DNA of 64,000 bases from Tolypothrix brevis GSE-NOS-MK-07-07A. GTDB taxonomy: Bacteria > Cyanobacteriota > Cyanobacteriia > Cyanobacteriales > Nostocaceae. Below are positions 20,917 to 46,456 of this stretch, in pieces. Position numbers and translations under genes: made by a program. The notes under the pieces are model-generated. The model had not been told where the DNA came from and did no database searches. It saw nothing but the letters and a program-made list of their open reading frames with translations. Location of the stretch: the NCBI GenBank assembly GCA_019358985.1, contig JAHHIJ010000004.1, positions 62,001 through 126,000 on the forward strand, in the 5' to 3' direction. Numbering within the stretch: the stretch's first letter is position 1; every line of letters starts with the position of its first letter.

Positions 20917-21045
20917 CTAACGTGGTATGCTAAATAAGCTTAAAGTTAGGAAACTCCGGTGGAATTCCGGGACTGTGCCGCAGCTGTAAAAGGTTTACCT
21001 GAGTCAGAATGCTAACTTAAAGCGGTGTCTAACTGACACTTACAT
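20917..21045 (+). promoter_or_regulatory. Cobalamin riboswitch
   Basis: The conserved B12-box region is clear: 'ggaaactccggtggaattcc' continuing 'gggactgtgccgcagctgtaa' (20949-20989), then 'gagtcagaatgct' (21001-21013). The flanking 'taaagttag' and 'ctaactta' pair and close the core. It ends about 40 bp ahead of cobG. The family binds adenosyl- or methylcobalamin and turns the downstream operon down when the vitamin is abundant, so cobGHI should be feedback-controlled. The exact expression platform cannot be decided by eye; the stretch 'attccctgcgttgcacggggag' just before the start could hide the ribosome binding site. Confidence 0.92.
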
Positions 21046-44593: not shown

Positions 44594-45496
44594 ATGACCT
44601 ATAAGCAACCAGCGCAACTCAAATCAGAGATTATAGCAATGCCAACGTGGTTACGTCGTCCGATTGGCAAAGCTAGTGAACTCTCGACGGTACAACGCAT
44701 TATTAAGCAACGCCAAATTCACACGATTTGTGAAGAAGGACGTTGCCCCAATCGCGGGGAATGCTACTCCCAAAAAACGGCAACTTTTTTACTCATGGGT
44801 CCCACATGTACGCGGTCTTGCGCTTTTTGTCAAGTAGATAAAGGTCATGCACCTATGCCTCTGGATTCCTCAGAACCGCTGCATGTGGCAGAATCAGTGC
44901 AGCTTTTGGGATTACGTTATGTGGTATTGACTTCTGTGGCTCGTGATGACCTACCAGATCAAGGAGCGGGTCATTTTGTCAAGACGATGGAAACTATCCG
45001 CGCTTTGAACCCAGAAGCTCAAATCGAAGTGCTAACACCTGACTTTTGGGGTGGGGTTGTTGGTGAAGAAGGTCAACGCCAACGGATAGAAATGATTGTC
45101 AAAGCGCACCCTGCTTGTTACAACCACAATATTGAAACGGTGCGACGGTTGCAAGGTCCTGTGCGACGAGGTGCGAAGTACGATCGCTCGCTAAGGGTGC
45201 TTTCTCTAGTCAAAGAGATTCAGCCGACAATTCCCACCAAATCAGGTTTGATGCTGGGACATGGTGAAACCATTGAGGAAGTCATTGAAACAATGGCGGA
45301 TCTGAGAACTGTAAGATGCGATCGCCTCACTATCGGTCAGTATATGCGTCCTTCATTAGAACATCTGCCAGTACAAAAATATTGGACACCCAAAGAATTT
45401 GATGAGCTTGCTATTATAGCACAAGAAATGGGATTTAGCCACGTTCGTTCTGCTCCTCTAGTTCGCAGTTCCTACCACGCCGGCGAAAGCCCTTGA
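44594..45496 (+). CDS. lipA: Lipoyl synthase
   Basis: A 300-residue radical-SAM enzyme that inserts two sulfur atoms into protein-bound octanoyl chains to make lipoyl groups. The auxiliary cluster ligands are in '[12 protein letters not shown]' (CX4CX5C, about 46-57) and the radical-SAM ligands in 'CTRSCAFC' (CX3CX2C, about 73-80). '[17 protein letters not shown]' and 'HNIETVRRL' and the C-terminal 'VRSSYHAGE', which donates the serine ligand of the auxiliary cluster, are all present. A MITE begins at the base following the TGA stop codon. Confidence 0.96.
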
Positions 45497-45594
45497 TAGA
45501 CATAGACGTGAAAATGAATGTAGAGACGTAGCACTGCTACGTCTCTACATGGGTTTCAGATAACGCATCATTAATTTCTGGCTGGAGATGTCTA
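45497..45594. mobile_element. MITE, family A, complete 98-bp copy
   Basis: Left end tagacatagacgtgaaaatg, hairpin gacgtagca-ctgctacgtc (45527-45546), inner phrase reversed 'cagataacgcatcattaatt', right end ctggagatgtcta. TA at both ends. Starts directly after the lipA stop codon. Confidence 0.88.
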
Positions 45595-45740
45595 ATAAAA
45601 TGGGGGGGATGGGGCAGGGGAGGAGGGGCAAATTATTTCTTCTTTCTTGCCCCTTTCCCCTTTTCCCCTCTTCAAATGCCCTATAATACATTTTGTTGAC
45701 TGGTGCTGTTTTAGGGTACAAAATCCACAAAAATATTTTT

Positions 45741-46150
45741 GATGAGTGTCGCTAAATGTCAGGAACCCTAGCCGTCATGCATAGGGCTTGCATGAGAAAT
45801 CATCAAGCCATTCTGACCCGACCACCTAGTAATAGGTAGCCGTTATTTGAGTCACGACACCTTGGGATACGCAGCCAGTCCCCCGCTTTGTCGCTTGTAA
45901 TTAAATAGTTCTAAGGTCACTGGAACAGTGTTACAAGCCCAACAAGCTCTTATAACTGGTCAAGGCTAACTTTACCCCGGAAGGGAGGGACGAAAGTCCA
46001 AACATTATGCGTACAGGATTGGGAGACTTGAAACGGTAATTGTCCCGTTGAAAGTGCAACACAAAAGCACACCGAACTAACCTTTTCCCTTGGCGGTAAT
46101 GGAGTAAATATAAAGTCGTCCTATAAGGACGGGGTTTCTACCCATTTTTT
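45741..46150 (+). ncRNA. Structured RNA element, candidate ORF-less HEARO / IscB omega-RNA
   Basis: About 410 bp with dense base-pairing potential and no open frame. A long-range stem gtgtcg (45746)/cgacac (45855) closes a domain containing ccta-gccgtcatgca-tagg and acctagtaataggt hairpins; then cttgtaa/ttacaag (45895/45930) around cactg-gaa-cagtg; ggac-gaaa-gtcc (45988); acgg...ccgt; gtgc...gcac; and at the 3' end cgtcc-tataa-ggacg and ggg-tttct-accc. Both borders are 'tttttgatga' (45736-45745 and 46147-46156), giving a direct repeat typical of the GATGA-type target of HEARO elements. The closest known class is the RNA that guides IscB; the nuclease gene is missing here. Class assignment is from memory. 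Confidence 0.5.
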
Positions 46151-46203
46151 TGATGACGACACTTTGCTATTTGTTAAGAAGAGTGTAATTAGGAGAGGAA
46201 ACT

Positions 46204-46365
46204 ATGACAGCTCAAGCCAAGAAACCTACAAATCCAAAAGTCGGTGCAGAAGTAGCTCAAACCGGCGCTAAAGCTCCATTTCCCTTTCGCACCGGAATCA
46301 GTTTATTTCTCCTAGCTGGTAATTTCCTGATAGCAGCAATTTACTTCCATCTGGTTGACTTTTAA
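46204..46365 (+). CDS. psaX: Photosystem I subunit PsaX-like protein
   Basis: A 53-residue protein too short for usual ORF lists. A polar N-terminal part rich in Ala, Lys and Pro is followed by 'FPFRTGISLFLLAGNFLIAA' and 'IYFHLVDF', one membrane helix. The 'FRT...LLLA.NFL.AA.YF' pattern is that of PsaX, a peripheral one-helix subunit of photosystem I that binds a chlorophyll. 'aggagagg' sits 7 bp ahead of the ATG, an excellent ribosome binding site. It follows the structured RNA element by 54 bp, so that element may lie in its leader. Confidence 0.75.
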   Translation: MTAQAKKPTNPKVGAEVAQTGAKAPFPFRTGISLFLLAGNFLIAAIYFHLVDF

Positions 46366-46456
46366 TCATTAGGCTCTTGTCAAGAGTGAGGAGTCAAGAG
46401 TCAAGAGTTAAAATTTTGACCATTGACTTTTGACTCTTAATTGGATTTGGTGTTGC

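Follow-up and report, generated by a model that had tools for sequence, protein, structure and literature searches.

An ORF-less HEARO element with a second structured RNA domain ahead of psaX in Tolypothrix brevis

Introduction

What occupies the approximately 400 bp without a long open reading frame that lie upstream of psaX in the genome of Tolypothrix brevis GSE-NOS-MK-07-07A? The locus is part of a 64,000-nt stretch of contig JAHHIJ010000004.1 that was analyzed as a whole; this stretch is called the window here, and coordinates are window positions. An initial annotation, made from the sequence alone, had placed a multi-hairpin, orphan HEARO/IscB-type RNA at 45736-46156 and had considered either a non-autonomous element mobilised in trans or a captured guide RNA. 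HEARO elements insert directly 5' of ATGA or GTGA, and the guide of an omega-RNA is 16-20 nt long and is located on the 5' side of its scaffold. PATE-like elements are non-autonomous derivatives of IS200/IS605. ISC transposons were reportedly the subject of Kapitonov 2015, and the first OMEGA paper is said to be that of Altae-Tran et al. 2021.

The insertion in the psaX leader

The features of the locus are these:

45696..45724, + strand: promoter-like TTGACT-17-CAAAAT (prediction; 9/12 consensus matches, identical letters in four same-genus genomes)
45738..45757, + strand: host psaX leader abutting the omega-RNA 5' end, putative guide (present in the empty sites)
45758..46152, + strand: complete ORF-less HEARO (ISC-type, IscB-family) element, 395 bp (ends from empty psaX leaders)
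45758..45975, + strand: HEARO / IscB omega-RNA scaffold (RF02033, 120.4 bits, model positions 1-211 of 211)
45964..46116, + strand: conserved 3' RNA domain, located where iscB starts in autonomous elements (model R1, 160.7 bits, not an independent score since the psaX copy is one of the 16 sequences used to build the model)
46117..46131, + strand: palindrome CGTCC-TATAA-GGACG at the right end (seen in the sequence and in other copies with the same right-end type)
46132..46152, + strand: terminal sequence of the right end, GGGTTTCTACCCATTTTTTTG (seen in the sequence and in the right ends of other copies)
46153..46156, + strand: ATGA right flank, host DNA, insertion motif and candidate TAM (right of the junction in 3 of 4 empty sites)
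46204..46365, + strand: psaX, photosystem I subunit PsaX, 53 aa (PF08078, 67.9 bits; Shine-Dalgarno-like AGGAGAGG ahead)

The description of a stretch without a long ORF upstream of psaX is borne out, as the only ORFs of at least 35 aa inside the element are of 40 and 43 aa, both on the minus strand. A gene for a radical-SAM protein, which we take to be lipoyl synthase, precedes the element, and no nuclease ORF (HNH/RuvC) was found behind the HEARO between this gene and psaX. The corresponding leader is empty in all four same-genus genomes compared (L077, L079, L080, L081), and both ends of the element are fixed thereby. With a slash at the junction, the empty-site join reads ...GCTAAAT/ATGACGAC..., the left junction falling after 45757 and the right before 46153; the element is therefore 45758-46152, 395 bp, and comparison with the four empty sites reveals no target duplication. 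The exception among them is L080 (G002), which has ATAA, not ATGA, at the right junction (ATAACGAC).

An element is thus present where the initial annotation had placed it, but its borders differ from those proposed. The tttttgatga taken as the left border (45736-45745) is host leader DNA, found in all four empty sites, and the supposed right border is composed of the element's own end, TTTTTTTG, and the host ATGA; the insertion motif stands on the right side only. Nor is the proposed 6-bp gtgtcg/cgacac stem a feature of the element, since its left arm (45746-45751) is host DNA that stands in the empty sites; only the right arm (45855-45860) belongs to the element.

A further 80 loci from named genomes, fetched via the neighbouring gene, contain psaX in 70 cases and the element in none; at least three of the 80 appear to come from genomes already among the four of the genus. 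The nearest by the neighbouring gene are an uncultured cyanobacterium, Plectonema radiosum, Hassallia byssoidea and Spirirestis rafaelensis (91-95%). The psaX leader pattern was recovered from 67 of the 80 (L152-L231), giving 57 distinct leaders with conserved blocks at nearly fixed spacing under an extraction pattern that itself required AAATATT and the ribosome site. RNAalifold predicted no helix on the 57 distinct leaders. The insertion parts the two halves of this conserved leader by 395 bp (host parts in 45722-46206).

Promoter-like sites on both strands of the region number 3, against 1.2 in shuffles, and a scan of the plus strand of 45480-46420 for terminators found none. The element lies downstream of the promoter-like site and upstream of the psaX ribosome site, so the omega-RNA may be present as a 5' leader on psaX messages. 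The element may plausibly affect psaX. The ATG at the junction opens 11 codons; to the right of the insert, psaX retains an intact ribosome site. A palindrome with a 15-bp stem (ATGTAGAGACGTAGC...GCTACGTCTCTACAT) is located at 45518-45550, between the upstream gene and psaX; similar stretches occur behind L030 and L034 in the same genome. Elsewhere in the window, an AdoCbl-II (cobalamin) riboswitch was found at 20932-21022 on the plus strand (RF01689, 42.4 bits against a cut-off of 36.5).

HEARO RNAs and IscB genes in the genome

The assignment to HEARO is based on a full-length covariance-model match (120.4 bits) above the RF02033 gathering score of 83 bits, although several pairs are broken in the model alignment of the psaX copy. 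Single-sequence folding on its own provides little support (z = -2.02; an equal or better fold came from 6 of 100 shuffles). It is the covariance-model match and covariation over many copies that support a structured RNA: across 31 copies (30 R1 elements and one iscB element; alignment A4, leaving out the R1 copies L013 and L031 of this genome), RNAalifold found compensatory change in 23 of 37 pairs. The multi-hairpin RNA of the initial annotation is therefore upheld as a structured RNA, but not by its single-sequence fold. Its identity as a HEARO/IscB-type RNA is supported by the RF02033 match, by copies with the same ends and by the empty sites in relatives.

The 5' 'spacer' region of HEARO RNAs has been reprogrammed (PMC9755519), and on this basis we infer that the 16-20 bases of host DNA immediately left of the element serve as guide. 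A search for the 16 nt of flank adjoining the element, allowing up to one mismatch, gave a single occurrence in the genome, namely their own site. A captured guide RNA with a second genomic target was rejected on this result, and the proposal of a captured guide thus found no support, the insertion being absent from relatives as well.

Twenty-six HEAROs score over the cut-off in this genome and 39 are found at E up to 0.001; 14 control genomes gave no HEARO match, and the number is thus more than chance would give. A DNA search of the genome with the element listed 42 matches: the psaX place, a further 15 of 300-428 bp, and others that are shorter. Copies with the same ends exist elsewhere in the genome. 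Six plasmid records match the element, one of them over 80% of it. Ten short matches (33-56 bp) cover the right end only, for example C57:24529, C58:32426, C70:77824 and C46:82629; some are beside weak HEARO matches, and other elements may share that end.

Ten matches to RRXRR (PF14239) were found in the genome. Three of these proteins, of 423-430 aa, are IscB by NCBIfam NF040563 (443-467 bits, cut-off 175); each of their genes lies 28-36 bases behind a HEARO, and the C3 IscB matches solved IscB structures. The other seven, of 171-386 aa, look IsrB-like by their length, and most carry the PLMP motif, a feature of the IscB/IsrB family according to PMC9581776. HEARO matches stand beside four of these seven genes, at 30.6-41.6 bits, far below the R1 copies (102.7-160.9 bits, n=18); the HEAROs behind IscB score 96.8-138.5 bits (n=3). 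Y1 transposase (PF01797) is represented by six rows, three of them strong (143-145 aa). The absence of a nuclease gene at the locus, from which a non-autonomous element had been proposed, fits with IscB genes and Y1 transposases elsewhere in the genome, which would allow mobilisation in trans.

It had also been asked whether a full-length iscB copy with the same ends exists elsewhere. The psaX-copy HEARO has closer relatives than the HEAROs of the three IscB genes, among which that of C15 is the closest by eye. The left end of the psaX element aligns with the C15 iscB element, but its right end is of another type; some R1 copies have right ends that by eye resemble that of C15.

A conserved RNA domain in the place of iscB

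Approximately 150 nt behind the HEARO, ending at the right-end hairpin, are common to 18 of the 26 elements over the cut-off in this genome, the psaX copy included. The first 12 nt of this domain, R1, overlap the HEARO end. The initial annotation had not distinguished it as a separate domain. With 16 of these copies (alignment A1, which leaves out L019 and L026 with their extra 50 nt), RNAalifold predicted 27 pairs, 13 of them with compensatory change. Much the same nested fold was obtained from 24 sequences of other genomes alone, with compensatory change in 18 of 28 pairs (alignment A3: 24 of the 27 places scanned for HEARO, leaving out L106, L115 and L110); the small first hairpin is missing from this prediction.

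In an alignment of 45 distinct R1 sequences (A2), 95.4% of cells are paired and both partners vary in 19 of 27 pairs. Two-sided cells number 145 against 33 in shuffles, none of 500 shuffles matched the alignment on any of five measures, and pairing falls to 34-44% when the partners are slid. Since A2 is a model-fitted alignment in which L016 (an iscB element, 27.3 bits) is present, this test leans towards structure, and kinship among the sequences can itself beat shuffles. The table for the other genomes holds 103 G-U cells and 8 A-C cells, an excess that favours an RNA read on the HEARO strand, although G-U pairs, unlike A-C, are permitted by the folding program to begin with.

No Rfam 15 family reached its cut-off over the R1 domain; in a permissive scan of 45500-46400, the sole match that overlapped R1, apart from the HEARO tail, was COG2908 (minus strand, 14.4 bits against a cut-off of 58.7). 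Two other identities for R1 were rejected. A remnant of iscB is ruled out by the covariation, including the similar fold from other genomes alone, and a part of an IsrB omega-RNA by the lack of any R1 match beside IsrB-like genes among the matches listed.

Two further ORF-less HEAROs of this genome, L010 (C38) and L011 (C14), have a different and shorter 3' structure, with compensatory differences between both copies and, by eye, a possible pseudoknot. L011 is shortly upstream of a frame that resembles chlL. Elements of this kind are known. The literature searched (including PMC9755519, PMC8131839, PMC6452270 and PMC9581776, the founding papers lying outside that set) gave no mention of ORF-less HEAROs with a dedicated 3' domain that excludes iscB.

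Occurrence of R1 and iscB behind HEAROs

The R1 domain is found in at least 16 of 59 relatives, in at least 77 places; in a sample of 386 genomes from across the phylum, at least 25 carry it, all of them belonging to one cyanobacterial order among the matches listed. The tallies of R1, HEARO and RRXRR are lower bounds because the genome-wide searches score part of the candidates, with stricter filters above 40 genomes; in the 386-genome search 7 candidates were scored per genome, and T. brevis itself has 7 there against 18 in the search of the 59 relatives. A scan of 27 of the 59 R1 places outside this genome found a HEARO over the cut-off immediately 5' in 24; there is none in that position at L100, L111 and L102.

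The 159 HEAROs tallied are the listed ones plus the 26 of this genome, with 150 RRXRR rows among the matches listed. R1 is next in 57, RRXRR in at least 46, neither in 56 and both in none, where 16.5 would be expected if the two were independent; the tally is the same with fewer RRXRR rows. The 46 are to be read as RRXRR genes, mostly IscB by score, since RRXRR also covers IsrB. Likewise, none of the 77 R1 matches has any of the 150 listed RRXRR rows inside 2.5 kb. The 56 HEAROs with neither are a mixed group, in which seven loci were inspected: L124 has an iscB start that the tally overlooked, L130 is already in the RRXRR count, L136 has a shortened R1-like stretch, L120 and L139 have no R1, L134 is at a contig end, and L121 (G027:C72) is an internal deletion derivative of an iscB element, with the ORF start joined to the ORF end. 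Nine listed HEAROs of G027 are without R1 and without RRXRR. One genome, G005, has three HEARO+R1 elements and no RRXRR match among the matches listed, so a resident IscB is not needed for persistence of the copies.

Insertion sites and right ends of other copies

For the 16 other R1-type copies, 90 + 90 flanking bases were joined and searched in the genus. In 13 of the 16 a junction-spanning empty site was found in at least one same-genus genome; none was found in the genus for L015, L018 and L025. Since these sites are empty in relatives, the copies have spread. The insertion L022 is shared with G003 (L089) at the same place, and some insertions are therefore older; this is the sole sharing across species among the loci compared by eye. 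With ends as we assigned them, the right junction is ATGA in 17 of the 18 R1 copies of this genome, the other being L022 (ATAT). Different HEARO elements are found at the same start codon ATG in two species, L013 in T. brevis and L091 in G004, the gene presumably being ndhO; G004 is without approximately 64 bases of the left flank at L091.

Several types of right end occur among the copies of this genome. In one, to which the psaX copy belongs (TTTTTTTG), ...CCCATTTTTCTG precedes ATGA. In another, AAGGAGTTT(C)G or a close variant stands just before ATGA (L012, L017, L018, L023 and L027, and also L091 of G004). A third is longer and by eye like the right end of the C15 iscB element; it is our own assignment, backed by empty sites for L013, L019 and L031 and not for L025. 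The AAGGAGTTT-type end reads as a Shine-Dalgarno sequence at start-codon distance, and the element may bring its own to a gene start.

The ATG at the right junction opens a frame of at least 60 codons in 10 of the 18 copies, whereas the control ATGA sites, counted together with in-frame internal Met codons, do so in 69 of 362 cases in nearby flanks and 95 of 524 in the window (binomial P = 6e-4 for 10/18 against the flank sites). Purging of insertions inside genes could account for part of this enrichment. Among the five AAGGAGTTT-type copies, three open at least 60 codons; L012 and L027 open only 7 and 8.

Discussion

The HEARO match, the empty sites, the other HEAROs of the genome, its IscB genes and its Y1 tnpA genes together lead us to a non-autonomous ISC-type element that is probably served in trans. 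We regard as the likely reading an IS200/IS605-like (ISC) element with a full-length IscB omega-RNA scaffold, no protein and a second structured RNA in the iscB slot. Like HEARO RNA (RF02033) and the IscB omega-RNA, it has a full-length scaffold, host flank directly 5' and ATGA on the right; it differs in having no iscB behind, with the second structured domain instead. With PATE-like elements it shares the lack of an ORF, a hairpin end, the lack of target duplication, a fixed short motif and Y1 tnpA in the genome, but it differs in belonging to the IscB branch of the family and in having R1 as well as a long omega-RNA; its mobilisation by TnpA is presumed. Standalone omega-RNAs of IscB, which according to PMC9581776 can work with IscB and are credited there to the first OMEGA paper (its reference 4), likewise have no nuclease of their own and an IscB elsewhere in the genome. 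The IsrB system, with its omega-RNA of ~300 nt, is of the same superfamily and has an NTGA-type TAM, DtIsrB cleaving targets with TTGA or ATGA according to the same source; no IsrB-type ORF, however, lies downstream at the psaX locus, and the IsrB-like genes of this genome have weak HEAROs at 4 of 7 and no R1 beside them among the matches listed.

A mechanism can be proposed. Y1 TnpA would act on the hairpin ends and move the element in trans, and RNA transcribed through the left flank would carry that flank as guide. IscB, supplied in trans, would cut copies of the site without the element, with the left flank as target and ATGA as TAM; such targets could be sister chromosomes after excision, and repair from the occupied copy would restore the element. 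Where no iscB message follows the omega-RNA, the 3' domain probably serves to stabilise it, to end it or to aid its loading.

Three other explanations were weighed. The position of the stretch might suggest a normal conserved structure of the psaX leader, but the empty leaders of all four same-genus genomes and the named-genome loci, with psaX in 70 of 80 and the element in none, rule this out, and we give it practically no credence. It is unlikely, too, that the element is a defunct deletion derivative that arose when an autonomous iscB element lost its ORF and that now only drifts, without RNA function. Such derivatives do exist, as L121 of G027 demonstrates, some HEAROs of this genome score low, and the HEARO of the psaX copy has broken pairs. 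R1, however, is a separate conserved RNA of at least 16 of 59 genomes, with covariation beyond all 500 shuffles and a similar fold elsewhere; moreover, the scaffolds of the R1 copies score like those of IscB genes, and sites empty in relatives indicate that the copies have spread.

We hold a mobile gene-control leader, in which R1 would act on the downstream gene by leader regulation or terminator control and not in mobility, to be improbable as well. The frequent opening of long frames at the junction and the Shine-Dalgarno-like AAGGAGTTT(C)G variant of the right end speak for it. Nevertheless, 8 of the 18 copies are away from such starts, two of the five AAGGAGTTT-type copies open only 7 or 8 codons, the psaX junction opens 11 and psaX retains its own ribosome site. 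Purging of insertions within genes would by itself enrich for starts, and a single insertion (L022/L089) is shared across species among the loci compared by eye.

Returning to the non-autonomous ISC-type element, we suggest more tentatively that HEARO+R1 may form a distinct RNA-only class, so far of one cyanobacterial order, in which the 3' domain replaces iscB and the guide RNA exploits the IscB and TnpA of its host or of neighbouring elements. R1 would in that case be a functional partner, acting in stability, in recruitment of IscB or in control of the downstream gene, and not a leftover. If this is true, HEARO+R1 would be the omega-RNA counterpart of a SINE. The R1 domain combines strong covariation with the lack of an Rfam 15 match at cut-off; it stands behind HEAROs and never with iscB in the tallied loci. 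Occurring naturally in many copies, these elements can be used to ask whether guide RNAs are served in trans by IscB nucleases and whether elements without genes take advantage of these enzymes. The strong covariation of R1, together with its separation from iscB in the tallied loci, therefore makes the question testable in cyanobacteria.
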